NCBI GenBank assembly: GCA_948144175.1
Contig: CANXME010002126.1
Span: 372,001-436,000, forward strand
Origin: Closterium sp. NIES-65
Lineage: Eukaryota > Streptophyta > Zygnematophyceae > Desmidiales > Closteriaceae
DNA length: 64,000 nucleotides
Direction: 5' to 3'
Of the stretch, positions 613-22,297 are shown piece by piece; the stretch's first letter is position 1; every line of letters begins with the position of its first letter. The translations under genes were made by a program, and so were the position numbers. Under the pieces are notes generated by a model. It was not told the origin of the DNA. It ran no database searches and worked only from the letters and a program-made list of their open reading frames with translations.

Positions 613-911
613 CCCGAACACCCCAGCCGAACTCGGTCGACGGAGCCGATTTGCCAGTGTCGTCGAGGGGGGTCGCCGGAGCCGAGAATGACGAGGCGGG
701 CGACTGACGCGCGTGCGGGCCTGCCAGCCTGGCCCAGGGCTGGGCCGACCGCACGACCGCCGCCCCGTAGCCCCGCTCCGAAAGTGAACAGTGGCCCACG
801 TTACCTGGTGGGGTCGGCGAACTTGCGACACCTCGCGCTTGGGAAAGTTACCCTCGCGCGAAGGCAGCCCACACGCGCCATCTGCCCGCGAAGTCCTAGT
901 AACCCATCGCG

Positions 912-931
912 GCCTGCCCGGACGGGCAGGC
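912..931. repeat. 20-bp palindrome conserved in both Crypton-like units (copy A)
   Basis: Arms GCCTGCCCG (912-920) and CGGGCAGGC (923-931) flank a 2-bp centre. The same sequence occurs at 11829-11848 in unit B inside a well conserved stretch about 530 bp upstream of the plus-strand gene. It could be a recombinase or regulatory protein site, or a hairpin in a leader. That role is inferred only. Confidence 0.6.
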
Positions 932-1055
932 GAGGGCCGGGCGAAAATTCGGGGCCCCCTCGAGACGCTCGACAATTTCGCGACCCGTTGCGGCGACGCC
1001 ACGTGTTCGTTCGTGGTTTCGCATCGGGCGCATGCGATATTTGTCGTTGCGAGCG

Positions 1056-1081
1056 AAAAAAAAAAAAAAAAAAAAAAAAAA
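1056..1081. repeat. Poly(A) tract, 26 A
   Basis: An uninterrupted A run sits inside GC-rich leader sequence of unit A. Unit B has no such run at the matching place. No retrocopy body lies upstream of it, so it is read as a homopolymer expansion and not as a retrotransposition tail. Confidence 0.9.
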
Positions 1082-1456
1082 GGCCGCGTCGCGGACAACG
1101 AGGTTCGTTACCCGCTACGAAGTCGACACGTGTTGTGCGAATGCACGCTCCTCGCGCTCGCGAAATTGCGTCCGCTCGCCGACCTGGGACAATGGACGCG
1201 AGGTCGACGCCCTGCCGAAGCGGAGTCGGACCACCTGTTCCACTTGCGCATGCGCCCTCAGAGCCCTGCCGAGCCAGGCCCCACACCCTTGGGCGACGCT
1301 GAACGGGGATGCGGTGGGCCACCGTCTCCTTTTATTTGAGGATGGTGGCATCGCTCCCCATTTTCCGCATCTCGTTTCGCTCCTCCTTTTTTCCTTCTTT
1401 TCCCATCCTAACGTGGCTCTCTGCGGCTATCATGAAATCGCTTCCCCTTAGTCAAT

Positions 1457-4400
1457 ATGGACCCTAGCCCCGACCCCGATAACTCGGCGCCGACTTCGGC
1501 TGACTTTCCTCTTCGTCACCCAATGGGTCGTGGTCTCAGCTTCACTTTAGAGTGGGAAGACTTCTTAGTTCTTCGCAACCACAAGATAGAGTTCAACGAC
1601 GGATGTTTGGATTTCGGCATCAGGTACGACTCGAGTAGTCGGCGCCGACTAAACTGGGTTGGGTGTCGACGCAGTGGCCTTCTGATTTACGTCGACGTGC
1701 GCGGTATTAGGCATAGACCCCCTCCAGGAACGTCGGCCACCTTAGGAATCGCCGACCACACGCAGTCGCCCCGTGTACTTTTCAACGTTTGCTCAACTAC
1801 GCTTGTATGAACCTCCTTGCCCAATCGTGCCGTCAGGTTTGCGTGGTCCCGACTTGGGATCGAGACCCAGCGTTTGTGGGTTATCGGCGTCGGCACGCTT
1901 CGATCGGCCATGCGGGTGGCCGACCATTCATGCTTTGCTGCGGTTTTCGACGCCGACATCGCCGCTATCCCGTTAAGAACGGTGTGAGCTGATTCACCGT
2001 TGATCAGTTGTCGTTTTTTAGTGTTGCGACATCGCGTGGTGTTGTGATCGACGTCGTCGTGAATTGCATGTGCAGCCTCGGTGCGCTTCCAGGAACGCAC
2101 TGCAGCGTCATTGCCATCCTATACCCTGGAGATCTGTTGAAGGCTGAGGGACAGGTGTGCAGGACCTCAATCCGGCACATCGACCCGCAGACCGGTAAAG
2201 GGTATCACCGCGACGAGGCCGCCCGCGTGCTAAAGTAAGTGCTGAATTGTCGTCGATGACCCGCTTGTTAGTCGGCGACACAGGGTATCACACGCTGACC
2301 GCCTCCCCCCACCGCGGTGCTTCAGGTTCTTCCACACGGCTGTCCTGGCCGAGCTGGGGCGTCCCGGTAGGATGTGGGACTGGGCGCCGCCATCACAAGC
2401 AGTGGTGGAGGTCAGGCTGGCCGACTGCGACCACCCTATCCGCGATGTGAGTTGCACGTTCAAGTCGCAAGGGGGGGTGCCCGTTTCTGAACGCTCCGCT
2501 CATCATGTTCCGTGCTTGTATGCAGAAAGTGCCGGGCACAGTGTCGGACGGGCATGTCGGTGCCGGCGTGCTTTCCGCGACGTCGTTCGGGTGGGTAGCG
2601 AAACAGATCGACCATCTGACAGGCGAGAAGGGTCGTCGTGGGGTGAGAATCGAGAGCGTCGGGATGAAGGGGATGAAGGCTTTGCGCGACAGCATGGTTG
2701 AGTACGTCGGCAAGGTCATTGCCGTAAAACGCACCGCGACGCCGACTTCTCAAGCCGCCGGACCCGCCGACAGTGCCATAGATGACGACGGCGCGGAAGG
2801 ACAGAAGGCGCCCCAAGGTGCAGTGGCCGCCCAGCATCAGGGGAACGCGAGGGTGCATGGGGAAGGTGGAAACGGTGGAGGAGGCGACGCAGAGGCAGGT
2901 GCAGGAAGGTTGGAAATGGAGAAGTCGTCGTCGTCGTCGGAGTCGGAGTCGGAGGAGGAAGACGAGGCGGTGAAGCGTAAGGACGAGGAGGAGTATGAGG
3001 AGTATGAGGAGGAGGAGGAGGAGAATAAGGACGAGAATGGTGAGAAGTGGGAGGGAGGGAAGGATGAGGAGGGGGGGGATGAAGAGGTGGAGTTCGTGGT
3101 GGAGTATGTAGAGGGTACGGTTGAGGCGGGAGAGGCGGAAGAGGCGGTGGGGCCGGCAGATCAGGGGAATGAGGAAGAGAAGGATGACGACGCGGGAAAT
3201 GCTACGAGGTCGGCAGATGTGGGGAAGGAGAAGGGCGAGGTCGGCGTGGAGGCAACGACAGGAAATGGCCAGGATGAGGCGGCCTGCGAGGGAGGTGGGA
3301 AGGTGTCGGTCGACGCCGGCGAAGGGGCGAACAACACGGGCGAGCAGGAGGCCGGGGAAGCACCTTGTCGGCAGGGCCCAGAACTAGACGACGTCGAGGT
3401 GCTGCGAGGGGAGAACTAGTTGTTGCGGGCGGAGAACGCTCGGCTGGCGTCGTTGCTCGATGCGGAGCGATCCCGGCTGGACAATTTTTTTGTTGGGGTT
3501 AGTAGACTCGTCGACCACGTTAAAGGGTTGGCCGAGCAGGTCGACGACACCGACAAGTATGCCGCGGAACAGCTGCGAAACGCGACGGAGGCCATGTCGA
3601 AGACCATCACGGGCAACATCACCAGCAGCTTTGACGAAGCGTGGAAGTCGATGAAGACATTCGCGGAACATGCGACGGAGTGGTTGGAGGACTTCGACAA
3701 TCCGGAGGGTCGTGTCGCGTATGCACGAGCGTTAGCGGTCTCCTCCTTGGCCGAACACGTGGATTCGGTGGTGGGCGATGCGAAGAAGGGGTTGGAAGAG
3801 TACATCTCGAACCACCTTGCCTCCGCGCAGGTCAACATCGCCACCGCTTTGACCGCCAGGCTCGCCGTGCCGCCGCCGCCACCGCCTCATCCCACGCCGC
3901 CCGCCATCCCAGAAGAGCTTTTGAAGTCGTTCAAGGCCGACATCCTGAAGGCGGTGACGGAGGCCACCCAGCAGTCTTTTGTTGCTTCCGGGATGAAGAT
4001 CATGACAGAGATGATCGGCACTGTGGCGCTTGGTCGACGTGGGTCGTCGCCTTCGGCCAATGACGCCGATAACGCGCAAAGAAAAACGGCCGAGAAGCAG
4101 GGCCATAAGAGGACGGGCGACGGAGACGACAAGGGGAGCTCGAAGCGGAGCAAGGGAGCGGGCGGTAGTTTCGGGTCGAAGCCTGCGCAAAAAAGCGACC
4201 AGCTGAAGACGAAGGCGGGGTGGAAGGTGGTAAGGACGTCGCACAGCAAGGGAGGCGGAAGCGGGGGAGCAGAGGGTGGCCCTGCCGACGGGGTTGCCGC
4301 TAACCTAGCTGCTCCGACTGGCCCGCCTTTGGTCGCCGAGCAGACCCATCCTCAGGCGAGCGGTGGGAAAGGCGTTACCGACAAGGAGGTGCCAACTGCT

Positions 4401-6574
4401 CAGGCGGCGAATGATGGTGACTCCGGAACCGCCAAGGGACCGTCCGTCGCGGCGGCGGCCAAGCCTGCTTCTGCTACGGTTGCCGGCACCACCAAGTCGA
4501 GTCCCCGTAACCCCCTTGCGGCTACCAGCGCACCTGCCGGCCAGTCAGGTGCGAACAAAGATGGGGAGGCTGCTCCAGCTCCAGCAACCCCGACTGCCGC
4601 CAAGGTTGTCGCGAAGGTTGCTTCGGCTAAGGGTGATGCCATGGCATCAGCTAAGGCCCCCCCCGGTGGTACCGCGCTCAGAGAGATGCTCCGCCGCATG
4701 GAGGCACATAGCAGGGACGTGCAGCAGCATCCCGCGGTCGACGCCGGCCTTCCTGGAACAGCACGCCGCTCCGTCACTACGCAGGTTGCCGGCAAGTCGT
4801 CCGGTGCCCCACCTGCCGCGCCTCCGGTGGCCGCCCCACCGCCTGCGGACCCCAAGTCCGATTTTCTTCGCGCCCATTTAGGCGCACGCAAAGCGGCTGC
4901 TCCGTCAGTGACCCTGCCGAAACTCGGCAAAAGCGCGACGCCGACGTCGGTAAACGCGACCACACCCACACCAAGTGCATCTGTGGTCGATGTGGCGGCG
5001 GAGAAGGGAGTGAGTGCAGCGCTCGCCACCGGCGGCCGCGCAGACAAGCATGCCAACCTCGCTGTCGTCATGGCCCATTTTGAGGCAGCAAAGCGCCCCG
5101 AGCACGCCCCTGTTATGGCCATCATGGACACGGCGCATGTGGTGCCGTCGGCGACCCACGGAGGGGGTTCGACGGAGCAGACGGCCGCAACAGCTGCTGT
5201 CGCCGAGATAAATGCTGGACGGAAGGAAAAGGACGACAACGGGAAAGGGAAGGCGGTCTCTCAGAGGAGCACGCGGGCGATGACTGCGGGGAAGTTGACG
5301 TCGGAAGAGAAAGGAAAGAAGGCGGAAGGGGAGAAGGACAAGACGGGCGGCAAGGGTAAGCCGGCGAAGAAGAAGGAGAAGGCGGAGGAGGAGGACGAGG
5401 AGGGCGGCGAGGGAGATAAAGAGCATGGACGCAGGGGTCATGGCATCCGCCGAGACAAGGCTGGCGACGGGCAAGGGTGGGTGGGCGAGATTAAGGTACA
5501 CGGACAGAATCGGTACATCGGCAAGTCGAGGGAGAAGATGGAGCTGGCCTACGAGCACGCGATTGCGTTCGTCGTCTACGACGGCTACGTGAGCAAGGTG
5601 CTCATGAAGGAGCTCACCGTCTTGAACCCGGGGGAGTTGGATAAATGGAAGGAGGTGTGGGCGGAGGTGAAGTTCTTGCCCACTGGGATGTGGACAGTGA
5701 TGTGGGCCAGAGGCTTGTGCCATCCGAGAGCAAGGTAAGACGGATACTGACGTGCCGAGTTCTGTCGACCAAGTTGGTGTCAAAACGCTGAAGATCTGTC
5801 GTTTTAATGTGTTTGCGCGGCAGGTTCGACGATATACTCGACAGGTACCGTGGGTACGCGAGTTCGGGTGTTGCGCTTCATGACGTGCTCTGGCCGGCGA
5901 TCTGGTTCCCCATCATCGAGGACACGGAGGAAGGCAAGGAAGAGACGAACGCTCTCATGTCGGCGATGGTAAATCGCGTGTCGATGTGCGCGGCGTATGG
6001 GAAGGTCGCGGCGAGCGCGGCGTTTGGGAAGGTCGATGCGAGCGTGGAGGGGAAGGCGGACGAGAAGATGGAGATGGGGGCCCAGGCGTTAGCGGCATCG
6101 GCATGCGCCATCTGGTGCTTCTTGGAGACGGGGGCGTCGGTGCTCGGTGCTGTGGGCGAAGGGAAGGCGGCGGCGATGGTGGCAGGTGCGGGGGAGGCGA
6201 GGGCCAAGGACTTCAAGGAGGTGATGCACGCGGTGATCGACATAGCACGCAGCAGGCAGGCTCCCGCTGGGGAGGTTGCACATAACGTCGCGCCATCGCT
6301 GCAGAGCCAGGCAGTTGCCAGGGCCTTCGCGAAGGGAGTTGAGGAAGTCGAGGCCGACATGATCGCAAGAGCGACGGTCGAGACCTTGGCGTTCTGGGGA
6401 ATGTGCCTCGTCGCCGGGCCCAAGCTCAAAGCGCAGGGCATCGATGTGCCGTGTGACGCGAGGATGGAGTACGATATGGATCACAGGGGGAGGAAGGGGG
6501 AGAAGGTCAAGCAGAGCAAGGGCAGCAGCAAGAGGAAGAAGAGCAAGCAGGGCATGGGCAGTACGGATGCGTAG
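1457..6574 (+). pseudogene. Plus-strand gene of unit A: acidic coiled-coil protein with AP2/ERF-like stretch
   Basis: I do not recognise the family. Five exons with GT-AG introns and closed frame: 1457-1623, 2076-2234, 2326-2446, 2526-5734, 5824-6574, about 1468 codons. The start is the first ATG of exon 1. The N-terminal exons contain a compact region conserved in unit B (LYPGDLL, ADCD motifs). Exon 4 holds an acidic Glu-rich segment (about 2900-3200), a coiled coil (about 3420-3800), Ala/Pro/Lys-rich low complexity, and a segment at about 5430-5590 with HGIRRD, GWVGEIK, NRYIG and LAYEHAI, the order seen in AP2/ERF domains. Exon 5 ends in a Lys-rich tail like a nuclear signal. One in-frame TAG at 3417-3419 interrupts exon 4, and the frame then continues unchanged for 772 codons. 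Its 3' end faces the recombinase gene about 560 bp away. It is probably a DNA-binding accessory protein of the element. Confidence 0.65.
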
Positions 6575-7023
6575 TTGGCGGGCTGTGGTGTGCAAGGCAC
6601 TATTGTATGGTTGGCGCCGATGGCGTAGTAATTCTAATGACTTTTGTATCAAAGGGCACGAATCTTTTTCCGTTTTATAGTAAATCACTGTCCACATTGA
6701 AACTTGCTAGCCAACTTTGAACGATGCGCCTTGTCGCCGCATATGTCGACATCAAAAGGAACATCCTACTCGGCGAGCAGCGATGATAGACGGGGTAGAC
6801 ACATGCTATTCCGCGACGAGTTATGTCGGCGAATATGTCGACGCCCTATCGACATGCAATCCTGCGAGACGTCGACATCGAGCTGTGCTTAGATGTGAGC
6901 AAGGATACTATTTTTGTTTCTTACTGAGCGACCGACTACATTTAACACAGCGGGACCCAGTAGGTTCGCAAGGGCGTTGCAGTGGGTTGTTACAAACTAC
7001 CAGAACAGCATTTGGAAAAACAA

Positions 7024-7071
7024 GGGAAGGGGGGGTGGGGGGGGGGTGGAGGGGGGGCTTGGGGGGGGGGT
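7024..7071 (+). repeat. G-run tract between the convergent genes, possible G-quadruplex
   Basis: Six runs of six or more G, separated by one to a few bases, lie between the 3' ends of the two convergent genes of unit A. Unit B has no counterpart in its matching gap. The tract meets the usual four-run quadruplex pattern many times over. Confidence 0.8.
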
Positions 7072-7131
7072 GTACAAATCTGCCACTGTTAACAGCATCG
7101 AACTACGCACACGCATATCCTACAGGCGCGA

Positions 7132-10100
7132 TCATGTCGACTTCTTGCGCTTGGTCGGAGGACGGTGCACCGGAGCGGTCGGCTTGGCCGGTGCTGTCGA
7201 CTTGGCCGGGGCCGTCGGCTTGGCCAAGTCGGCCTTGGTCTTCGGCATCTGGTCCTCCCACGTGTCTGGAAACAGGGTTTCGACCCAATCACTCTGCTTC
7301 AAGTTGAGCGCCACAAGCGCACAGGCGAGGCGTAGCTTCGAGACCACCTTGGGGCCCAGCCCCTTGACTCCCAAACCAGGCTCTTTGGACAACATCGGTG
7401 CCGTTCCCGGTTTGAGCACCGTGAGGGCATCGGCGAAGGTCCCGATGCCCGATGCCGCGATCCTGTGCAGTGTGTCGACCACGGCCTCGGTGTTGGCGTC
7501 GCCGTCGCTCGCGCGTAGCTGGCGCACCGCATCCATGACCTTCAGCATGCGGCGCACCCTCTTGTTGAGTGCACTCTGCGTCGCGTCGGCGAGGAGGGTG
7601 TGGCGGTCGATGAACCCCGGCCCGGCCATCCTGTCGCAAAGCCGACGGGTGTCATTAGCGGTGGCGGAGTTCCAGAGGCGCCAGGCGTCCCTCACGGTCT
7701 TGGCCTCCCGCCACGGTTGTACCACGTTGAGCTCGTAACTAGCCTCCTCGTCCGTCTGTGGGGGTGGCGGGGGTTTGTCGTCCCCTCCGTCGGCGTCGGC
7801 TCCCATGTTGGCCGAATCCGCCGAGCCACCCTCGCTGGGAGCATGCGCGGTAGCACACGGCGGGGCCTCCGGCACTCTCCGTGCTTCTGACACACGGAGT
7901 GCCTCGGTGAGACGGGTTATCTCGGCGGTGAGAGACGCGATGGTGTCATCGCGCTTCTCGAGCTCCTCCAGGAAGTCAATCTTCTCGTTTGCGGCACGCT
8001 CCATCTCCTTCGCCAGCTTCACCTTGAGAGACATGTTGTAGTATTCGGTGTCCATGCGGACAGAGATTTCCTGCACCGGTAAGAAAAAGACGTTAGCCGC
8101 GAGGTGGTTTGGAATGCCCTACAGCCAGCTCGTCGTCGACTTACCTCTTCCTGAATTTGGGTCGGGTCCCGACGCTTGTTGATCGTCTCGGTGTCGACCC
8201 TTTTGACCCGTTTCGCCCAGTGCTGGAAGAGGGGGATCCGCCAGAGCAAGGAGCCTTGGACGTACGGGTGCCATGGTGTGCGGACCAGCTTCACCGCTAG
8301 GTCCTCGGCGACGATGCGGCGCAACATCTGGAGTGTGCGCCAGAAGTGCACCGCGGCTTTGTCGGCGTCGGACCCCTCGACAGCCTTCCCTTCCGCCTGC
8401 AATTTGTCACGTGTATTAGGAGTTCAGACACTATTGGCCACACGACTCGGAAACCAAGAATACGAGGGCTTCGACCAACATACCGTCTTCAGCATGTCGT
8501 CGACGCCGGGGAAGATGTGCTCGGCGAGGAGCTTCAAGAGCTTATCGGAGGGCTCTACCCTGCTCCGGCCCAAGAAGTAGTCCTGCTTGTAACTTGAGTA
8601 ACCGGCCTTCTTCATCACCACCCCCACCGGAATGGCGGTGATGTACGCTCGCGTCATCTTGTCGAGCGCCCAGTGACCCAGCTCCGCGATCTCGGCGCGC
8701 GGTGTGCCGTCGATGGCCAGCTCCTGGGCCCCTCCGGCTCGAGCGGCGTGCACGTTCCTCTTGCAGAAGACCCCGTTTTTGTCCCACAATTGCCGCGTCC
8801 AGCGTTGGTGGGTTGCCGCAGAGAGCTCCCCTTGGTCGGTGTCGTTTCTTGCGAAGAAGAGGTGCTTCTTGTACCAGCTCGCGCGTGTGCTGGTGTCCAC
8901 CGGCAGAATGAGGCGGACGCCGTGAAACTGGCCGATCTGGTCGAGGATGAAGTGCAACCACAGGCCCGTCTCGCCGACGGCGCACAATTCCGCTTCGAGG
9001 TGCCGCGCAGCGTAGCTTTGCTGCAAACGCGCATCCTTGGACGTCTTGGAGTTCCGCGCAGCGATGACCATGACGACCGGCTGGTTCTCCGGGTTCACCG
9101 ACGAGGTGCTCGCCAGTCGGTACAAGAATATGTCGGGGAGCGTGATCTCGCGGATGCTTGCACCGCGCAGAAGAGAGTGGTGGGAGAGTAGCGTGAGCAC
9201 CTTCAACAGCAGAAACCGCCATAGCGTCTGCGACGGGCCCGTACCCCGCGGGTTCCACGCCTTGGCCGCCCACGTCGGCAGCACCCTGAACATGATCTGG
9301 CAGAATTGCTCGGCAGTGTAGGTATCGCCGATTGTTCCGCGACGCCGATCGGTGCAGTTCCTGCCGACAATGCCGAGGGTGGGGGGCAATTAGGGCGGCG
9401 TCGACTCAGTACAAGACAACAAGAGAAACAAAAACTCACTTGATGTCCCGCTCGTTCTTGGTGCGGATCATGAACCGCACCTCCGACCTGACTACCGATA
9501 TCTCACGCATGATGCTCAGCTCCGTCTCCCGGTATATCGTCGCCTCCACTCGCGCCGCCATCTGGCATGCCTTTATGCGCCCAAGGAGCGTGTGCACCGT
9601 TGTAGATTTCATAGGCTGTGTTCCTATGGTGTTGTCGCCCTTCTTGGTTGACTCGGCATCGAGATTCAACTCCCGAACCATGTACTTCACGTATGCGCGA
9701 AGCCGGGACTGGGTGACCCTAGGGCCGTGCAGCCACACGTACGACCGGGGGACATCGGCCTCTTGGTCCCAGTTTTTCTTCTTGTTGTCCCGGATGTAGT
9801 GCCCTATCTCGTCGACGTGCTTAAGCCTGTACTCATGCGGAAGCTTGTTGCGAATTTGCCTCAACATGTTCGCCGCCCACCTCTTGTAGTGATAGATCCA
9901 CGAGGTGTACTGCCTCAGCGTGCTGTTCCTCGCCACGGTTTGCGGGTGGCGTAGTGCGTCCAAGACGAGCACGTCAATGGTCTTGTACACCATGTCTTCC
10001 GCGACGAAGTCTGCCGCCCTCCACTGTTCGCGCGGCACTGACAAATTCTCCTGGTCTGTATCCTCGTCCTGTTCGAGCAGATCATCTATGTATTCAAGTT

Positions 10101-10458
10101 CCCACCTGAGCCGTTCTTCCAAGGTGCGCTGACTAGTGCTACGCGGCGGACGCTCGTCGTTTTCGTCATAGCTTTCCTCCTCCTCCTCCCCCCCATCCTC
10201 CTCCTCATCGACATCAACCTGGTTTCCAGGGCCGGCCGGTGCCGACGAAGTTCCAGGCCGTCAAGTTTGCGTCGGATTCTGTTTTTTGTTCTTCTTAAAC
10301 TCCCCGACCGGCGGTGGGGGAATGTCCTTGGTGAACTCCCCTTCTGGAATCTGCGTCAGCCTGTCAAGATCGTAGAGTAAGGGGAGCGTCTCTTCCTCGG
10401 TAGATGTCGGACTGTGGTCGGCGGATGGTCTAGCGTCAGTCATGTCGACGTCGGCCAT
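7132..10458 (-). pseudogene. Crypton/Ndc10-like tyrosine recombinase, unit A
   Basis: Four exons, read on the minus strand: 10458-9440, 9360-8484, 8396-8145, 8070-7132, about 1028 codons. Frame and phase match unit B. Exon 2 carries the tyrosine-recombinase core: Arg about 405 (LLRGAS), Lys about 445 (NSKT), HAAR at about 544-547, GHW ending at Trp 570, and Tyr 579. Arg to Trp is 23 residues and Trp to Tyr is 9, the same as R292, W315 and Y324 of Cre. The following LGRSRVEP and IFPGVD resemble the Ndc10/Crypton domain. Exon 1 is acidic and then helical, as expected of a core-binding domain. Exon 4 has a coiled coil and ends in a Lys/Arg-rich tail. One in-frame TGA lies at 10261-10263. It would cut and join DNA in the nucleus if active. 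Here it is probably dead. Confidence 0.8.
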
Positions 10459-10478
10459 GTGGCAGCACGTATGTTGCT

Positions 10479-10730
10479 CTATCGTCGTCCGTGTGCGATG
10501 CGGAGGGCGGTAAACCGGAGAGGGAACTGATTCGCGCGGCGGTCCTCTTGGAATTCTCGTTCAAGTAACCCTAACTCGGCTTCGACCTCGAGCCGTTCCA
10601 GCTCCGCTTTGATGTCGGCGTCTACAGAGTCGGCGGGGGGTGGAATGGGTTGCGGCTGTCGGGCTCTAGGCCGACCTCTGGCCATGCGTCGCCGACTTGC
10701 TACGTCGGCGGGGACGTTAGGAGCATGCAC
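10479..10730 (-). CDS. Small reading frame upstream of the unit A recombinase, hypothetical
   Basis: 83 codons, Arg/Pro-rich at the start (GRPRARQPQPIPPP) and then an acidic helical stretch rich in Leu and Glu (about residues 35-65). It lies just upstream of the recombinase start on the same strand. It could be a separate small protein or part of a 5' exon. I see no clear counterpart in unit B, which argues against an essential role. Confidence 0.25.
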   Translation of the reverse strand: MHAPNVPADVASRRRMARGRPRARQPQPIPPPADSVDADIKAELERLEVEAELGLLEREFQEDRRANQFPLRFTALRIAHGRR

Positions 10731-11166
10731 CGATGTTTAGCTAAATCAGCAGACGTCGACGTCGATGACTACTGACCAAGTCGGCAACCGAGTAGCCTTC
10801 AGGCGCGATGACAGACTGGCAGCTGAAAATTCGAAGTGCAAGAGAGAGCAGGAAGAAACGCAGGAACGGACGTGGGAATGAGCAGGCCCGCAAGGTCACG
10901 GACGGGTATGGTCCTGAGCGACTCCGATGCTGCCGCGCTTCACGCACACCCCTATGCTGCTGCCGCCATGCATGTGATCTCGTAAAGGCGGCGCACTGGC
11001 CGACGTGCCACGTGCCAAGCATGGCTAATGTGACGCAGCGCTGCAACGAAGGGGCGTAGGCCTGGGTCTTTCCACGGTGGAATGGGCGTGTGTTACAGTG
11101 TTGAGATTGTGCCGCGTGCCTTGGTTGTGGCCCTTTGGATGAAATTGTCGACACCGACATTGCTTG

Positions 11167-11529
11167 CCTTGACTTGCGATGCCACAGAACATTTACACCC
11201 TGGACGGTCCGATTTGCGCCGCGTGGCAGCCTAGTACACGGTGGGGACGATCTGGCTCTTCCTTATTGGTCCGCGTGGCGACCCTCGCGTCTCGACGTGG
11301 CGAGCTTTCCTGTTTTGTCCGCTGAGATTTACTTCTCAGGAATATCCCAAGGCAAACCTATGTCGTCGGATTGTCGACAATCCCGAGGGGTTCAGGGCCC
11401 CGGAGGACTGCCAGGTCACCCCAGTTTGCCACTCGGAGGTCGTCAGGAGCTCGTCAATCCCGAGGGGGTTCGTTGTCCTATCGCAACGGCGAAATTGGGC
11501 GGCTGTTTTCATCGGCTGAGGTATATCAT
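11167..11529. other. Spacer between the two Crypton-like units, no gene
   Basis: About 360 bp separate the end of unit A homology from the start of unit B homology. No family-level reading frame is visible. There is no copy of this spacer after unit B, so a simple one-step tandem duplication is not obvious. Confidence 0.5.
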
Positions 11530-11828
11530 CCCGAACACCCCACCCGAACTCGGTCGACGGAGCCGATTTGCCAGTGTCGTCGAGGGGGGTCGTCAAAGCC
11601 TGGGCTGACGCGGCGGAGCACTGACGCGCGTGCGGGCCTGCCAGCCTGGCCCAGGGCTGGGCCGAGCGCACGATCGCTGCCCCGCAGCCCCGCTCCGAAT
11701 GTGAACAGCGGCCCACGTTGCCGGGTGGGGTCAGCGAACTGGCGACAGCTCGCGCGTGGGAAAATTACCCTCGCGCGAAGGCAGCCCACACGTGCCACCT
11801 TCCTGTGAGGTCCTAGTAACCCATCGCG

Positions 11829-11848
11829 GCCTGCCCGGACGGGCAGGC
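11829..11848. repeat. 20-bp palindrome (copy B)
   Basis: Same arms and centre as 912-931 of unit A, with conserved sequence on both sides. Its survival in two units that differ at many other noncoding positions suggests selection before the units decayed, or recent exchange. Confidence 0.6.
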
Positions 11849-13925
11849 GAGAGCCAGGCGAAAAGTCGGGGCCCCCTCGGGACACTCGACAACTTCGCGA
11901 CCCGTTGCGGTGACGCCACGTGTTCGCCCGCCTACTTCGCTTCGGGCAACATGCAGAATTTGGTACATTGTGAATTCAATTCGGGACATTGCGAATTCGA
12001 TTTCGATCGATTCGCGGCGCACATTTTTCGCTTTGGGACGTGATATCGACTTGCTGGCTCGGCGGCGAATGAGAACTTGTGCCACTTGTGCACGACCCCG
12101 CCAAACCCCGCCGAGGCAGGCACCACGAGGGCCGGGCGATGCCTTGACCGTTCCTGTGGGGCACCGACCCCCTTTTCTTGGTGGAAGGGGGCACCGCTCC
12201 TCATTTTCGGCATCTCGTTTCCCTTTCCACCTTTTCCCCAGCTCTATGCCTTCTCCCACATTCACGTCCCTTAGCTTGTAGCCGCTTCCCTTCCCCGCCA
12301 CGTTAGCCGCCCCGAAACTCGGCGAAGTGACGCCGACTTCGCAGGACTTCCCTCTGTATCTCGACCTGGGTAGTGGACTCACTGCCAAGCTCGACGAACA
12401 CGACTACGCCATCCTCGTAGACCATAGGCTAGAGTTCAACGCCCGTTTCTTGGGATTCGGCCTCAAGTGAGTGTCCGTATTGGGATATCGACGTCGACCG
12501 CTGGATACCTTGCAGGTCGTTGTTGTTAGGGTTGTCCCACGTTTTGGTCGGCGCTACTAGTTTAGGGTTTAGATCACTACTCGGTGACGCACACAGCCGT
12601 AGGTCGGCACCGGACTCCGATCACTACAGTAGGTCGGTGCCCGCATCGGTAGGCGCCATTGATTACAACGTAGCGACGGTGGTGCACCGTTCTACTATCG
12701 CCATCCCCGTCAGTTGTCGGTTCCAGAACCCACGTGTCCATCCGTCGTGCCGTGCACGTCCTCAAACACATCTACTACCCATGCATGCGTGCAGGTACGC
12801 ATGAATTCGCGCGGCGCCGGCCAACATGCGATTGTGGTCGATAGGACTCGGCCGGCTTCGGGCGGCGATGGGCAAGGAAGACCACTCATGCTTTGCTACG
12901 GTGTTCGACGCCGACGTAGCTGTTATCCCTCTGCATTCGAGGTGAGCCTAAGTCATGATGGTGTACCATGATGCCTATGTCGCTGCTCCGTTCTGATCGA
13001 CGTCGTGGTGCCTAGCCTGTGCAGCATCGCACCGCTTCCAAAGGCACATTGCAGCGTCGTGGTCATCCTGTACCCCGGCGACTTGTTGCGGGCCGGGGGG
13101 GAGACGATCAGGACCTTTGTCTGGCAATTTGACCCGCAAACTGTGAAACAGTGGCACCGCGACGAGGCGATCCGCGTGCTGAAGTGAGCTCGATAGTGTA
13201 GTCGACGACGCATGCAATTTCGCCGCTAGGCGTTAAGCAAGTCTACTGACGATATGTGCCATGTTGCTTCAGGTTTTTCCGGGCGGCGGTGCTGGCCGAG
13301 CTCGGCCGCGATGGTCGGCAGTGGGAGTGGCCGAAGCCTTCTGCTGAAGAGGTGGCGGACAGGCTCGCCGACTGCGATGAACCCGTTCGAGATGTGAGTA
13401 CCGATCGTTTTACCGTCCTAGAGCGATGCAATTGCCGCCGCCGGTGCTCATCCTTGCTCTCTGCTCTGTTGTTTGCAGAAAATGCGCAGCACCGTCCGGG
13501 ACAGCGACGCAGGCTCTGGCCTCCTATCAATGAGCGCGCTGTGCTGGGTGGTGAACAGGATGGATCGCCTGACCGGCGACGACCGTCGCAGTGCGACCAG
13601 CATGGACAAGGTCCTCGTTTCAGGGTTGAAGGAGCTGCGGATTCGGATGATCACATACATCAAGGAACACGTCGCACGCAAACGGTCAGGCCATGTCGGA
13701 GTTGCTGCCGATGCCTGTGACGACGACGCCGCGGAGTCCCCTTCGGCATCCCAAACAGTCGGTGTCGCCGACACCAGCGGAGAGGCCGGAGACGGCGTCG
13801 ACAAGGCAGATGAAGAGGCAGAAAGGGCTGTGGCGAGGACCGCAAATCAGGAAGAGGAGGAGGATGACACCGACGATCAGGATGATAACGAGGAGGATCG
13901 TGAGGAGCGTGAGCAGGGGCATGGG

Positions 13926-14043
13926 CAGGAGGAGGAGGAGGAGGAGGAGGAGGAGGAGGAGGAGGAGGAGGAGGAGGAGGAGGAGGAGGAGGAGGAGGAG
14001 GAAGAGGAGGAGGATGAGGAGGAGGAGGACAAGGAGGCGGCGG
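13926..14043 (+). repeat. GAG/GAA triplet expansion encoding poly-Glu
   Basis: A purine-only coding-strand tract of about 110 bases encodes more than 30 consecutive acidic residues within exon 4 of the unit B plus-strand gene. Unit A has a shorter, mixed acidic stretch at the matching place, so the expansion arose in B. Confidence 0.9.
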
Positions 14044-16374
14044 CGGCGGAGGCCGTGGAGCAGGGTTTCGGGTCGGTGGAGCAGGTGGCGGAGGGGGAGA
14101 AGCAGCAAGAGGGGGAGGAGGAGGTAGAGTTCCCCTGGGTCGAATTCGAGATGGAGGATGTTGAGGGAGCGGCTGCGGTGGCCGTGGAGGGAGCGGCGGC
14201 AGCCGTGGAGGGAACGGGTGGGATGTCGGCGGATGTTGTGTACGTGCGAGGGGAGGGTGCCGATGTGGAGAATGTCGGCGTGGAGGAGGCGCACGTGGTC
14301 GGCAATGTGGTTGGCGATGCAAAGGAGGAGGATAACGCCGCCGCCCTGACGCCGACAGGCGTGGAGACCACCACAGGGAACGCAGGGGTGGAACGCCGGG
14401 GTGGAGCGGTAGAGGCGGGCCGTCAACCGGGATCCTCAGCAGCTGGTCGGCAGGCAACACCGACCGTCGTCGCGCAGCTGCGACAGGAGAACATGTGGTT
14501 GAGGGCTGAAAATGCTCGTCTCGAGATGGCGCTAAGAGTGGAGAGGGGTCGGGAGGACAGGTTTGCGATGGGGATTGGCCGCCTCGTGGACAAGCTCAGG
14601 TCGTTGGCCGACCAGGTCGCTGCCTCCGACCAGGACGCGTCGAGTCGGCTGATGGACGCGTCCTTGACCATGGCGATGACCGTGACGGAGAACATCACCG
14701 CCAACATGGGTGAAACATGGGATGCGATGAAGGCGTACGCCGAGAGGGCGGAGAGCTGGTTGGACGATCTAGAGAATCCGGAGGGGTTTATGGCGGTGCA
14801 ACGTGCGAACGCGGTCGTCGCCATGGGCAACCACGTGGACGAAGCGAGGAACGGATTGGAGGAATACATATCGAAGCACCTAGTCGCCGCGCAAACCAAC
14901 ATCGCCGCCGCGGTAACTCAACGCGTCGCCGTCCCGCCGCCCACGCCGCCCGCCCCACCGCCAGCCTTCCCGGACGAGCTGATGAAGTCTTTCAAGGCAG
15001 ACGTGTTGAAGGCGGTGACTGAGGCCACCCAGCAGTCGTTTGTTGCGTCCGGGTTAAACCTCATGACCCAGGTGATCGGCCATCTGGCGCCTGGTCGGCA
15101 TGGGTCGTCACCGTTGGACAACGAGGCCGACACGAAGGGTGCGAAAAGGGCGGGCGGCGGAGATGATGCATTGAGCTCGAAGCGGAGCAAGGGAGCTGAT
15201 GGGAGCCGCGGCGTCGACCAGGTGGGTCCAGGCGGCTCGCGGAGCAAGGGAGCCGATGGGAGCGGAGGTACGAGCATGGTCGACCAGCTCAAGAAGAACG
15301 GGGCCAAGGTGATAAGGATGCACAGCAAGGGCGATGGAATCAGGAGTGCAGAGGGGGGCCCTGCCGACCAGGTTGTCGCTCAAGAGGCTGGACCAACAGC
15401 CCCGCCATTGGTCGCCGAGAAGACGGCTAGTCTAGTGACCGCGCCAACGGCGATAGATGGCGGCGCCAAAACCGTCAAGGGACCGTTCGGCGGAGTGGCG
15501 GGGACCACGTCGATCCCCAGCAAACCCCCTGCGGCTAGCAGCGCGCCGGTCGCCCCGTCAGCCGCCAACAACGATGGGCCGTCCCTTGCGGCTACTCCTG
15601 CACCAGCAGGCACGTCTGCCGCCAAGGTTGACGCGGTGAATGCTGCGGCTAACCGCGCTGGTCCGTCCGCCCCAAAGGCGAACGCGCTCAGGGAGATGCT
15701 CAGCCGCATGGAGACCCATCGACAGGACGTGCAGCAGCCTCCCGTGGTCGGTACCGCGCCGGCCACAACAGCACGTCGCTCCGTCACTCCCCAGGTCGCC
15801 GCCACAACGTCCAGTGCCCCACCTACCGCGCCTATCATCGCCGCCCGTCCTCCTGTGGACCCAAAGTCCGCGTTGCTTCGCGCCCGGTTAGGCGCACGTA
15901 CTGCGGCAGCGCCAGCACGGGCTCAGCCGGTATCCAGCTCATGCGCGACGCCGACGTCGGTGACCGTAGCTGCACACACACTTGGTGCGGCTACTGTCGA
16001 AGCGGTGGCGGAGAAGGGCGTGAGTGCAGCGCTAGCCACGGGCGGCGGATCAGTTGACCCTGCACAGGCGGCGAAGGACCACAACGACGTCGATATCGCT
16101 GCCATCCAGGACCTGTTGGAAGCGGTAAACCGCCCCAAGCAGCCCCCTGTGCTGGCCATCTTGGACTCGGCGAGTCCCACCGGTTGTACAGCGGAGCCTT
16201 TGACGACCACTGCTGCGGTCAGCGCGGGAAAGTCGAAACGGAAGGGGACAGTCGACGCAGGGAAAGCGAGGCCAAGCTCGAAGAAGAAAACATGGGTGAC
16301 GTCGGCGATGGTGAAGTCGGTGGAGAAAGGACAGGGGATGGCGACGGCGATGGTGAAGGAGAAGGCAGCGGAGA

Positions 16375-16626
16375 CAGTGAAGGAGAAGGAGGAGGAGATG
16401 GAGGAGAAGGAGAAGGAGAAGGAGGAGAAGGAGAAGGAGAAGGAGAAGGAGGAGGAGAAGGAGGAGGAGGAGAAGGAGAAGGAGGAGAAGGAGAAGGAGA
16501 AGGAGAAGGAGAAGGAGGAGGAGAAGGAGGAGAAGAAGGAGGAGGAGGAGGAGGAGGAGAAGGAGGAGAAGGAGAAGGAGGAGGAGAAGGTGGAAGAGGC
16601 GGAGGTGGAGGAGGAGGAGGCGGCGA
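16375..16626 (+). repeat. GGAGAA/GGAG purine repeat encoding Glu/Lys runs
   Basis: About 250 bases of almost pure purine sequence encode alternating Glu and Lys just before the AP2-like remnant. Unit A has only a short Lys/Glu patch here (about 5310-5410). Long polypurine tracts can form triplex DNA. Confidence 0.85.
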
Positions 16627-17968
16627 GGGAGGAGGAGAATGTGAAGATGAAAGAACGGAAGGGTCATGGCATCCGCCACGACACCACGGGCGACAAGCAA
16701 GGGTGGGTGGGCGAGATTAAGGCACGGGGCGCGTTCCTCCCAAAGACACGGTAAGTCGGATAAACGTCGGCCAAGCGATGATGTCGACGTCGGCGTTCCT
16801 AACGGCCGGTTTCGTGTGATTGCGTGACAGGTTCGATGATATCCTCGGGAAGTATCGAGCGTACAAGACATCAGGCGATGCGCACCATGACGCGCTTTTG
16901 CCCGCGATCTGGTTCCCCGTCGATGCCGACACGAAGGAAGGGAAGTAGAAGTCGGATGCAATGATGTCAGCCATAATTGACCGCGTGTCCTTGTGCGCGG
17001 TGTATGGGAAGGTCGCTGCATCCGCGGTGAGAATGGAGGGCGACACGGATCAGACGACGGCGAAGGTCGCACAGGCGCTGTCGGCCTCCGCTTGCGCCCT
17101 TTGGTGCTTAGTCGAGGGCGACGGCACCCAGGTGGCTGATGCCGTGCGCGAAGGGAAGGCGGCGGCGATGTTGGTCGGCGCGAGCGAGACTACTGCCGCC
17201 GAGTTCAAGAAGGTCATGACGGCGGTGCTGGAGGCCGCGATCAGTAGGCAGCAACCCCTCGGGGAGGTTGCGCACAACGTCGCACCGGCGCTGGAGTCCA
17301 CCGCTCTGGCCAAAGCCTATCCGGGGTTGGATGTTGATGCCGAGGCCAAACTAATCGCACGCGCGACGGTGGAAACCCTCGCGTTCTGGGGAATGTGCCC
17401 CGTGGATGGTCCGAAACTCAGGAAGATCGGCATCGTGGTGCCGCTTGACGCGCAGATGGAGTACGATATCGAACACAGGGGGAGGAAGAGGCAGAGGGGC
17501 AAGCAGGGCAAGGACAGCTCGGGGAAGAAGGGGAGGAAGGGCAGAGCGGGCAAGGACAGCACGGCGGCGTAGTCGGCATAACAATCTGCCATGGGCGGCA
17601 GGAGGGAGCGCAAGTAGGTCTTCTTGCTAGGATGGCCTGGTATTGGCGGCGTCGATTGTGTAGTTTTTGTTCGGATTTTTTTTCGTTTGATTGTATATTT
17701 TTCGTTGGGATTTCTTTTCGGTTGTGGTTGCGTATTTCTTTTGTTGGCTGTAACTTTTTGGTAGTGCATGTTACTAGAACACTCCTCGGCAAGGTCGACC
17801 TGATCTCTACCATGTTACTCAAATGCGGGCCCGGTTCGAGCCACCCCGTCGGCGTATAACAACTCGGCGTCGTACGGTGTCGACAAAGTGCGTCTGGCTG
17901 TATGTATGTATATTCTCGGCGATGAGCCTCATCAGCTAGACCGAGATGGTCTATGGTCGGCGCTTTGG

Positions 17969-18070
17969 TGAATGTGCCGCGCCGCCCATGTGGCTGAAAC
18001 TCTAGGAGGTCGGCATCGATGTGCCGTTTGACGCGCATATCGAGCGGGCATGGACAGCACTGATGCGTAG
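17969..18070 (+). pseudogene. Relic of the last exon of the plus-strand gene
   Basis: This stretch repeats the end of exon 5: the GAATGTGCC, ATCGATGTGCCG and GACGCG blocks and the closing GATGCGTAG are all present in order, with an internal deletion. Its ending is closer to unit A (6400-6574) than to the neighbouring unit B exon. It points to an earlier third copy or to patchy exchange between units. Confidence 0.65.
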
Positions 18071-18330
18071 TCAGCGCGCGGTGGGAGCGCTAGGTGGTAT
18101 GATTGCTCGGTTATAGCGTGATCGACGCCGTTTGCGCCGTTTGCATGCAGTCAGCGATGTCGACATGAAAAAGGCACAATGAATTTCACACAAATGCTGG
18201 CGACTATGTCGGAGTCCGACATATCTGGTTCGGATGTATGTGTTGGATCATGTATGTTCGTGTTGCATCACCGTCAAGAAGTACGATGGGATCACAACGG
18301 TTTGCTAAATTAGGGCATCATCAACCTACG

Positions 18331-21300
18331 CTAACACATATGCACCGAGGATGTTAATGCCGACTTCTTGCGCTTTGACCGAGGACGCTGCGCAGGTGCG
18401 GTCTGCTTGGCCAAGTCGGCCACGGTCTTCGGCATCTGCTCCTCCCAGGTGTCTGGAAACAGGCGGTCGACCCACGTCGTCGGCTTCAGCTCGAGCGCCA
18501 CCAACGCACAGGCGAGGCGTAGCTTCGAGACCACCTTGGGGGCAAGCCCCTTGACGCCCATGCCAGGCTCCTTGGACATCGTCGATGCCGTCTCCGGGTT
18601 GAGCACCGTGAGGGCATCGTAGAAGGTCCCAATGCCCAGTGCCGCGATCGTGTTCAGTGCATCGACCACGGCTTCGGTGTCGGCATCGCCGTCGCTCGCG
18701 CGTAGCTGGCGCACCGCATCCATGGCCTTCAGCATGCGGCGCACCCTCATGTTGAGTGCACCCTGGGTCGCGCCTTTGAGGAGGGTGTGGCGGTCGATGA
18801 ACCCCGGCTCGGCGACCCTGTCGCATAGACGACGGGTGTCATTGGCAATGGCGGAGTTCCAGAGGCGCCAAGCGTCCCGCACGGTCTTTGAATCTCGCCA
18901 AGGTTGCACCACGTTGAGCTCGTAACTGGCCTCCTCTGCCGTCTGGGGGGGTGGCGGGGGTTTCCCATCATCTCTCTTAGCTCCGGTCCCCGTGTTGGCC
19001 GAATCCGCGGAGCCACCCTCGCCCGGAGTTTGATCGGTCGCCAACGGCGGCGCCGCCGGCATCCTCCGGGCTTCTAACACACGGAGTGCCTCGGTGACTC
19101 GAGCAAGCTCGGCGGTGAGCGACGCGATGGTGTCGTTTTGCATCTCGATCGTCTCCTGTAGGCCTAGCTTCTTGAGCGCCGAGCGCTCGACCTCCTTCTT
19201 CAGCACCTCCTTGAGGGACATGTTGTGATACTGGGTGTCCATGCGGACGGATATTTCCTGCAATGTTGAGTGTGCGGAAAGGCGACAAGAGGTTAGAATT
19301 CACCGGCTAAAATTCAACGACGCCGACATGGTCGGCGACTCACCTCCGGCTGAATCTGAGTCGGGTCCCGGCGCTTTTTGATCGTATCGGTGTCGACCGA
19401 CTCGACCCTTTTCGCCCAGTGCTGGAAGAGGGCAATCCTGCAGATCTCGGAACCTTGGACGTACGGGTGCCACGGTGTGCGGACGAGCTTCACCGCGAGG
19501 TCCTCGGCGACGATGCGTCGGAACATCACGAGGGTGCGCAAGAAGTGCACTGCGGCTGCATCGGCGTCGCTCCCGTTAACGGCACGCGTCTCCGCCTGCA
19601 AGTCGGAAAGTGGCGTGGGTTAGTAGGGAGTTGGGCAGCCAACTAGGCCACGACGACTGAAAAACATTGTCGGCGTCGCGTGACATACATCGCGCAGCAT
19701 AGCATCCACTCCGGGGAAGATGTGCGCGGCGAGCAGGTCCAGGAGTTTGTCGGAGGGCTCGACCCTGCTGCGCCCCAAGAAGTAGTCTTGCTTGAGTCCC
19801 GAGTAGCCGGCCTTCCACATCACCACCCCAGCGGGAATGGCCGTGATGTATGCACGCGTCATCTTGTCGAGAGCCCAGTGTCCCAGCTCCGCGATCTCCG
19901 CGCGCGGAGTTCCTCCGATGGCTAGCTCCTGCGCACCTCCGGCGCGGGCGACGTGCACATTCCTTTTGCAGAACACCTTGTTGGTCGTCCACATCTGCCG
20001 AGTCCAACGTTGGTGGGTGGCGGCGGGGAGCTCCTCCTGCTCCTTGTCGTTTCTGGCGAAGAAGAGATGCTTCTTGTACCAGCGTTCGCGTTCTGTGGTG
20101 TCAAGCGGCGGAAGGAAGTCGGTGCCGGAGAACTGACCGATCTGGTCGAGGATGAAGTGCAGCCACAGGCCGGTCTCGCCGACGGCGCACAGCTCCGCTT
20201 CCAGGTGTCGCGCCGCGTAGCTCTGCTGAAGACGGGCATCCTTGGATGTCTTCGAGTTACGCGCGGCGATCACCATGACGACCGGCTGGCTATCCGGGTT
20301 CACCTCCGAGGTGCTCGCCAGGTGGTACAAGAAGACGTCGGGGAGCGTGATCTCGCGGATGCTGGCGCCGCGCAAGAGAGAGTGGTGGGAGAGTAGCGTG
20401 GGCACCTTGACGAGCAGGAATCGCCACAGCGTTTGCGACGGAGTGGTTGCCCGCGGGTTCCACGCCGCCGCCGCCCATGTCGGCAGCACCCTCATCATGA
20501 TCTGGCGGAACTGCTCGACGGTGTAGGTATCGCCGATGGTGCCGCGTCGACGGTCGGCGCAGTTCCTGAACGCAAATCGGCGGGGAAAATCAGTTAGACT
20601 GCATCGACTTCACAGTGCACAGTGATATAGAATAAGGTTGTCGACCAACTTACTTGATGTCCCTCTCGTTCTTGTGGCGGACGTTGAACCGCACCTCCGA
20701 TCTGACCACCGAGATCTCCCTCATGATGCCTAGCTCCTTCTCTCGGTACAGCGTTGCCTCCACCCTCGCCGCCATCTGGCATGCCTTTATGCGGCCGAGG
20801 ATCGTGTGCACAGTTGTCGACCTCACAGGCCCCGTTCGCGTGGCATTGTTCTCCTCCCCGGGCTGGTCAACAATGAGGTTACACTCACGGCTCATTTGCT
20901 TCACGTAGGCGCGCAGCCGGGTTTCGGTGACCCTAGGGCCTTGCAGCCAGATGTACTGTCGGCGGACCACTTTCTCGTTGCACCAATTCTTTTTCTTGTT
21001 GTCGCGGATGTAGTGGCCGATCTCGTCGACGTGCCTAAGTCATTGCTCATGGGGTAGCTTGTCGCGTATCTGCTTCAGCATCTTCGCCGCCCACTTCTTG
21101 TAGTGGTAGATGAACGCGGTGTACAGCCTGAGCGTGCTATCCTTCTCCAAGCATTGTAGGTGTCGTAGGGCGTCCATTATGAGCACGTCGGTGCTGGAGT
21201 ACACCATGTCGTCTACTACAAAGTCCGTCGCCTTCCACCCTTCGCGCGGCACCGGCATGTGCTCATTGTCCTCCTTCTCGTCCTGTTCGAGCATGTCATG

Positions 21301-21651
21301 TATGTATTCAAATTCCCGCCTAAGGCGTTCTTCCAAGGTGCGCGGATTCGTGCTACGCGGAGGACGGTCGTCGACTTCGTCGTCGCTCTCTTCCTCGTCC
21401 TTGTCGTCGTCATCACCTTGGTTTTTCGAGCCGGCCAGCACCGACGAAGGTCCTGGCTGCCCATCTGACGTCGGTGTCGACTTCTTCGTAAACTCCCCCA
21501 TTGGCGGATTCGGTATGTCCTTGGTGTACTCCCCTTCGGGAATCTGAGTCAGTTTGTCAAGATCGTAAAGCAACTTCAGCGTCTCTACGGGGGCAGAGGA
21601 CGGACTGTGGTCGGTTGGGGTACCAACGTCGGGCATGTCGATGTCGTCCAT
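18331..21651 (-). pseudogene. Crypton/Ndc10-like tyrosine recombinase, unit B
   Basis: Four exons on the minus strand: 21651-20654, 20565-19689, 19595-19344, 19257-18331, about 1018 codons. Exons 2 and 3 are exactly as long as in unit A (877 and 252 bases). The catalytic set is again complete: LLRGAS, NSKT, HVAR, GHW and the Tyr nine residues after Trp. The LGRSRVEP and IFPGVD tail is also kept. One in-frame TGA at 21040-21042 interrupts exon 1. Conservation of the catalytic core against a background of many substitutions suggests that both copies were under selection until recently, or that exon 1 stops are late damage. Confidence 0.8.
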
Positions 21652-22297
21652 GTCCGCTCGTATGCTCTACCGCCGGCCGTGGAAGAGGGAAAGATTGGTA
21701 AACCAGAGACGGAAGTGATTCACGTCGACGCCTTAGTGCCGACGTAAGTCTATTCCAGGTCGACGCCTGAGTGCCGCAGCTGGATCGACTCGGCCGTCGA
21801 GTAACCTAGACCCGCAGAGATAGCGAGGGTCCTGTAAAGAAAACGAAATGCCAGATGGCGCACAGGAGCATGAGAGAAACACGAAGTTGAACAGGCAGAA
21901 TGAGAGCGTTGTGCGTGGTCAAAGAGGGGTATGGTTGCGGGCCATTTTGCACCTGCCGCGCTCCACGCAGCCCTCTTTGCAAGCGCCGCAGTGCACGTGC
22001 ATGACGTGTCACGATCGATGCATGTCTACTGTCACGCCGCTCTGCGCTCAACGGCACTCCAGCCGGTGCTTGCCACGGTGGAATTTATGTGCGCCACGTG
22101 CAATAGGCCAATCACCTAGTTCCACTCCCCCGAAATGCCGTAGCGTCCTGCTCTCCCGCGCAAACCTCATCGACCTGCGAGTAGGCGCGTGGCCAGAGGG
22201 TTGGTTGACGCCGACATTCCCTGAGTCTGGGGATCTCTTCGCCTATGCATTGTTTGGTCCGCATAGAACCATCCTGTCAGAGTATTATAGCTGATGC

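Follow-up and report, generated by a model that had tools for sequence, protein, structure and literature searches.

Does a pair of long, intron-rich genes that occurs twice in succession in an algal genome belong to the host, or does it belong to a mobile element that carries its own recombinase? The question is raised by a 64,000-nt stretch of DNA from the streptophyte green alga Closterium sp. NIES-65, which we analysed against the alga's own assembly (874,075,685 bases in 2400 contigs). This stretch, hereafter the window, corresponds to C1828:372001-436000 in that assembly. A prediction made from the letters of the window alone had proposed that it carries two copies of a two-gene unit related to Cryptons, a class of transposons with a tyrosine recombinase, in a green-lineage genome, and a streptophyte host agrees with the last of these points. 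We find it very probable that the locus is a tandem of two decayed members, one A-type and one B-type, of a multicopy Closterium family of DNA transposons moved by a Crypton-type tyrosine recombinase. The family is mobile, two-gene and Crypton-like, and is not a pair of host genes. It has exact ends, a 3-bp core at the joints, dispersed copies at unrelated sites and arrays that are exact tandems. Most A-, B- and C-type copies that were checked also carry a second gene convergent with the recombinase.

An exact tandem of two elements

Positions 613-22274 of the window are filled by two elements, units 1 and 2, arranged head to tail (Table 1). Each unit holds the same convergent gene pair, a minus-strand recombinase and a large plus-strand partner, as had been predicted, and both units are decayed, with in-frame stops in all four genes. 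The left edge of unit 1 was placed at the start of its homology with unit 2 and agrees with left ends mapped elsewhere in the genome; its right edge abuts the first base of unit 2 exactly. The joint at 11529/11530 reads GGTATATCAT-CCC-GAACACCCC and has the anatomy of the junctions found in tandem arrays (L010, L011 and L036), and the locus is therefore an exact tandem of units 1 and 2. Measured on unit 1, the element is 10.9 kb long, somewhat more than the 10.6 kb or so first proposed, since this unit reaches 11529. Unit 2 is incomplete: its homology to three sister B-type copies ends at 22243, 22248 and 22274, comparison with these copies shows that its last 0.4-0.5 kb are absent, and a search for the missing right end elsewhere in the window did not find it. 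The left-terminal 397 bp of the two units are 90% identical, against 67-78% in the remaining matching stretches, which may reflect either strong cis constraint or gene conversion.

The proteins of units 1 and 2 differ by 15% in recombinase exon 2, by 24% over the whole recombinase and by 50% at the end of the partner. Given divergence of 24% and 50% despite exact abutment, the tandem was most likely made by one element inserting at the end of another, and not by recent duplication. Near-identical versions of the tandem are present in contigs C83 and C2261, the latter 99.7% identical over 1501 bases; these look like copies of the window locus of the kind that segmental duplication produces.

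Further copies allowed the edges of the family to be mapped to the base, with a right end TCGGCTGAG-TATAT-AT, a 3-bp core and a left end GAA-A-CCCAGC. The right-end motif has 92 exact matches in the genome, versus none for the reversed control. A three-copy array in C2133, with spacings of 10851 and 10850, gives the joint TATATTAT-GCT-GAAGATCCC, an array in C1780 has a spacing of 10829, and the array junctions L010, L011 and L036 are identical as printed. Aligned further copies have the same ends within unrelated flanks.

Recombinase exon 2 has at least 135 matches across the genome at no fewer than 134 places, two matches being halves of one copy; this is a lower bound, as 134 of 623 first-look candidates were scored. 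Among the first 25 rows of this search, which are A-like (91-100% identity), exon 2 is free of stops in 8. In the next 37 rows (86-89% identity, nearly all C-type) it is stop-free in 36, often with equal bit scores, a pattern that suggests a recent C-type burst. A divergent fourth type, D, ends in ATCAT followed by GC, and both genes are present and convergent in the one copy examined. At the D-type loci L132-L137 (contigs C2155, C2122 and C1887), the right-end motif is found in inverted orientation on either side, the two occurrences being 9-14 kb apart, and on one side conserved sequence continues past it. Relatives at the protein level came only from Closterium, both among the best 120 of 170 matches and all 89 of a further 89 for the recombinase, and among 68 of 68 for the partner.

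Table 1. Features of the tandem, in window coordinates
Feature	Position	Strand	Details
Unit 1 (A-type element)	613..11529	+	core CCC 613-615; body from GAACACCCC at 616 to TATATCAT at 11529
Left terminal block	613..1009	+	397 bp, 90% identical to 11530-11926
Unit 1 partner	1457..6574	+	six predicted exons 1457-1623, 1837-1983, 2022-2234, 2326-2446, 2526-5734, 5824-6574; in-frame stop 3417-3419
Unit 1 tyrosine recombinase	7132..10458	-	exons 9440-10458, 8484-9360, 8145-8396, 7132-8070; in-frame stop 10261-10263
Recombinase exon 2, catalytic part (unit 1)	8484..9359	-	NDC10_II E 3e-13; tetrad motifs by eye
Tandem junction	11497..11545	+	unit 1 right end, 3-bp core CCC, unit 2 left end
Unit 2 (B-type element)	11530..22274	+	core CCC 11530-11532; right end missing
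Unit 2 partner, degraded	12320..17572 (start approximate)	+	stops 12802-12804 and 16946-16948
Unit 2 tyrosine recombinase	18331..21651	-	exons 20654-21651, 19689-20565, 19344-19595, 18331-19257; in-frame stop 21040-21042

Cores, empty sites and a proposed route of movement

The termini read TATATTAT-GCT in the C-type and TATATCAT-CCC in the A-type element of the window, and the core behaves differently on the two sides of an insertion. For the C-type, 29 copies were considered, from which we removed C532 (internal to an array, right end not found), C2144 (left flank the same as that of C30), C2100a and C1873 (flanks the same as those of C268) and C2234 (the same as C2399); the remaining 24, among which C2176 was used on its right side only, gave 22 left and 20 right junctions. 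The right core is GCT at 19 of the 20 distinct junctions. On the left, GCT occurs at 11 of 22, the rest being ACT, TCT, TCC, CCT, GCA, GCG or CCG, and the middle base is C in every case. Of the ten B-type copies, the irregular C985 and C1878 were set aside, and the other eight supplied six left and seven right junctions; the right core is CCC in 6/7 and the left in 1/6, with a middle C in 5/6. A-type copies were excluded from these counts, and the right ends recognised among them (n=6) all have the core CCC. The right side of the junctions usually holds the element's own core, and the left often holds another core with a middle C, as if derived from the target.

Uninserted sites were found for both copies examined, at 100% identity. 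The joined flanks of the C1649 copy match all 300 bases of uninserted sequence at C2165:553660-553959. When those of the C1780 array are joined through the left core GCA, they match C1976 and C874, likewise at 300/300 bases, which identifies the left core as the target's own and the right core, GCT, as the element's; this empty site sits in a dispersed repeat with 39 matches overall. Neither site shows any target duplication beyond the core. The right flanks moreover resemble the C-type left end, agreeing at 114 of 300 positions versus a shuffle mean of 77.5, and no shuffle in 2000 reached 114. This comparison used 25 of 27 flanks, C1977 and C1006 being left out for their irregular cores, and with two more doubtful flanks removed (those of the B-type C2261 and C180) the resemblance was still reached by none of 5000 shuffles. 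The core is also framed by inverted sequence: in the A-type joint of the C83/C2261 version, 13-bp arms 10 bp apart are complementary at 11 of 13 positions, a value matched by 6 of 3000 shuffles. As counts alone, the corresponding figures are 9/13 in the C-type joint and, by hand, 10/13 in the window's own joint.

We propose that excision by the recombinase releases the element in circular form, and that the joint of this circle (right end, core, left end) would serve as the recombination site; the array junctions have the sequence expected of such a joint (TATATTATGCTGAAGATC). The circle would then insert at a degenerate target in which NCN precedes a sequence weakly resembling the left end, with strand exchange spanning the 3-bp core, such that the donor core would be kept at one junction and the target core at the other. 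A tandem could form when a circle enters the end of an element already in place, or when the inserting circle is a dimer. Bacterial integrative elements of the Tn916 kind likewise have a degenerate target and leave the donor core at one junction and the target core at the other. The likeness to the Closterium elements is one of mechanism only, as Tn916-like elements are bacterial and conjugative and have a longer coupling sequence.

The two genes and rival readings of the locus

The recombinase gene has four exons in both units, all six of its introns are GT-AG with phases 2,0,0 in either unit, and the two proteins are 76% identical over 1009 residues. Pfam scans covered eight exons or exon parts from the window (E up to 10) as well as the proteins of 22 partners and 33 recombinases (E up to 1). 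The NDC10_II profile matches exon 2 of unit 1 (E 3e-13) and of unit 2 (1.3e-13) and was found in all 33 aligned relatives, in keeping with the Crypton-like recombinase of the original prediction, which had named the lack of any tyrosine recombinase match as evidence to the contrary. Phage_integrase gives a weak match (E 0.036) to the HxxR-to-Tyr part of unit 1 exon 2. The motifs LLRGASIRE, NVHAARAGGA, LGHW and RAYI in this exon, conserved in the alignment, were assigned by eye to R, HxxR, H/W and Y. GCR1_C was found neither in the 33 members (E up to 1) nor in the window exons (E up to 10). Between the units, exon 2 has a dN of 0.10 versus a dS of 0.60, and we read these values as purifying selection on the recombinase.

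The partner gene of unit 1 has six exons in our model, one more than first predicted, with intron phases 2,2,2,0,2 at splice sites predicted from DNA. In unit 2 neither an acceptor AG for intron 2 nor a start codon could be found, so the claim of identical intron phases holds for the recombinase and is not established across the whole partner; about 210 bp (some 70 codons) have also been lost near 16740, ahead of intron 5. Over the last two exons the partners are 50% identical (1229 aligned residues), with a dN of 0.41 and a dS of 0.67, and thus evolve faster than the recombinase. P0122, a near-identical partner from NIES-65, has tryptophan at the position of the stop in the unit 1 partner. 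Neither the window exons nor the 22 partner proteins gave a Pfam family for the partner itself, and the C48 peptidase was not matched there either; one partner model among the scanned proteins is fused to an ion channel. A resemblance to AP2 noticed by eye near 5440-5600 was put aside, as Pfam gave no AP2 match. The model of the C-terminal domain, with confidence mostly between 70 and 90, matched no solved fold. We infer that the partner is an accessory protein encoded by the element, with a possible part in DNA binding, assembly or regulation.

The position of the partner was checked in 20 copies (seven A-, seven C- and six B-type), and its last exon lies at the expected spot, convergent with the recombinase, in 15 of them. 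A partner also stands beside the recombinase in three of three further copies. At L127 (C180) and L129 (C1668), the recombinase is B-type by identity and open-frame length and the partner exon is 96-97% identical to the A-type, so modules may have been exchanged between subfamilies.

Several observations weigh against reading the locus as part of a mobile two-gene family. The partner is missing from the expected spot in 5 of the 20 copies, with copia-like sequence, judged by eye, at three or more of the five spots. The strain Closterium sp. Yama58-4 supplies 26 of the 68 partner matches (among P0123-P0184), yet no recombinase from it appears among the 208 distinct matches listed (120 plus 89, one in common); gene-model masking may account for this, or the partner may persist there without the recombinase. 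Assignment of the R-H-R-Y tetrad was visual, and AlphaFold gave a poor recombinase model (pTM 0.26). Ends are not always recognisable: among the 24 distinct C-type copies the right end was unrecognised in C687, C30, C43 and C1103 and the left in C233, while in the A-type, over the stretches retrieved, the left end was recognisable in 2/10 copies and the right in 6/10, one left being untestable because the contig ends. Three copies are irregular: C1977 combines the right core CCT with a longer repeat, CCTTTAGCGCT, present on either side, C1006 is reversed, with a target-like right core CCT and a left core CCC, and C2293 has the left core CTC. The empty sites come from two copies only, and the circle, its excision and the order of strand exchange are inferred from DNA sequence alone.

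It is possible, although we think it rather unlikely, that the partner is a passenger or captured host gene that is dispensable for movement; its faster evolution, the A-type partners of the two copies that are B-type by recombinase, and the partners of Yama58-4 would all agree with this. Set against it, the convergent arrangement is kept in 15/20 copies and a partner is present in 3/3 others, across the A-, B- and C-types, and the divergent D-type copy has one too. The earlier suggestion that the partner belongs to the element is to this extent supported, and constant pairing is not established in Yama58-4.

We consider it very improbable that another mechanism moves the element and that the recombinase only resolves intermediates, as is supposed for the ciliate elements Tec1 and Tec2 in PMC3212892. 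Copy numbers are high for a Crypton and the activity of the recombinase is predicted only, but the scanned window exons and the partner and recombinase proteins contain no domain of a DDE transposase, a Rep protein or a reverse transcriptase, both empty sites lack a target duplication, and a 3-bp core that comes from the target on one side and from the donor on the other is consistent with strand exchange. It is harder still to credit that two host gene pairs were duplicated in tandem, from a gene family merely resembling a transposon recombinase. Purifying selection, the introns and the near-identical versions in C83 and C2261, which resemble segmental duplications, could be cited in its favour, but the same edges recur at many unrelated flanks, and the two empty sites already refute it; where single-copy orthologues without empty sites had been named as grounds for abandoning the prediction, we found over a hundred matches in the assembly, with edges mapped to the base, and an empty site in each case examined. 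The least credible reading, that the locus belongs to something larger, a virus or polinton-like element, has in its favour that 11 kb is large for a Crypton, but the mapped ends enclose only two genes and, chance-level matches aside, the Pfam-scanned proteins have no capsid, polymerase or packaging domain.

Relationship to described elements and surroundings of the tandem

Taking the family as a mobile Crypton-like one, we compared it with other eukaryotic elements that encode a tyrosine recombinase. Starships, from Pezizomycotina, are also eukaryotic DNA elements with such an enzyme, but, in the partial descriptions we drew on, they are fungal, and the Closterium elements are far smaller. 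DUF3435, the domain of Starship captains, was absent from the Pfam scan of 33 recombinase members at E up to 1. The DIRS and Ngaro retrotransposons use a tyrosine recombinase for integration, and differ in that no reverse transcriptase was found in the scanned window exons and relatives. DIRS elements are covered in PMC3537659.

Cryptons, in the sections of the survey by Kojima and Jurka (PMC3212892) on which this comparison draws, are DNA transposons with a tyrosine recombinase and terminal direct repeats of 4 to 6 bp, recorded from fungi, animals, oomycetes and a diatom, in most of them at very low copy number; their boundaries are hard to define, and their mechanism was proposed by analogy. 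A C48 peptidase is the second gene of certain CryptonS and certain oomycete CryptonF elements (PMC3212892), so the mere presence of a second gene is no novelty for a Crypton. By the general definition, a Crypton is recognised by its type of tyrosine recombinase, and NDC10_II is present in both units, an assignment made by profile match; the Closterium core, 3 bp at both ends, is shorter than the repeats described. Like CryptonF, the family has a recombinase of the kind related to yeast Ndc10, a short terminal direct repeat with no long repeats, and a proposed circle (PMC3212892). It differs from CryptonF in lacking GCR1_C in our scans, in its length of about 10.9 kb, in its two long intron-rich genes and its streptophyte host, and in having at least 135 matches in one genome, against very low copy numbers in most hosts (PMC3212892). 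With CryptonS, known from oomycetes and a diatom, it shares the lack of GCR1_C and, for some members, a second gene (PMC3212892), but the Closterium partner has no C48 match and the termini are not TATGG, features that are common, though not universal, in CryptonS. The family thus falls under the general definition as far as this is testable, fits neither CryptonF nor CryptonS, and is set apart from described Cryptons by its host, its size, its copy number, its partner gene and its lack of GCR1_C.

Whether it forms a fifth, green-lineage group of Cryptons is in our estimate evenly balanced; such a group would be an obligate two-gene system, made up of the recombinase and a large partner protein, with a degenerate NCN core (donor bases on the right, target bases on the left), would form exact head-to-tail arrays by inserting at its own ends, and would have been amplified recently in Closterium. 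The original prediction of a two-gene, Crypton-like element in a green-lineage genome is supported, and the second gene has its precedent in the Cryptons that carry one (PMC3212892). A literature search, judged by its listings and with subscription journals and Repbase Reports largely outside its scope, found no report of a Crypton in Closterium, another streptophyte alga (charophytes included) or plants; Cryptons appear as a general class in a plant transposon review (PMC11630846), and according to PMC7385966 Arabidopsis has no described Crypton. The family would extend the Crypton group to an algal lineage close to land plants, and, with many ends mapped to the base, the joint displayed in arrays and the target in empty sites, this one genome makes the circle-and-insert proposal directly testable.

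Beyond the tandem, a copia-type reading frame occupies 23304-26738, just past the point where unit 2 ceases to match its sister copies, and a long terminal repeat, seen by eye, starts near 22275. The hexamers GTCGAC and GTCGGC are several-fold denser in both units than in 22300-64000, and the flank at 1-612 is likewise several-fold denser in GTCGAC than that region. Further downstream, at 50382-50976 and 51188-51777, lie a (TCCCA)n array (119 copies) and a tandem repeat with a 129-bp unit (4.6 copies).

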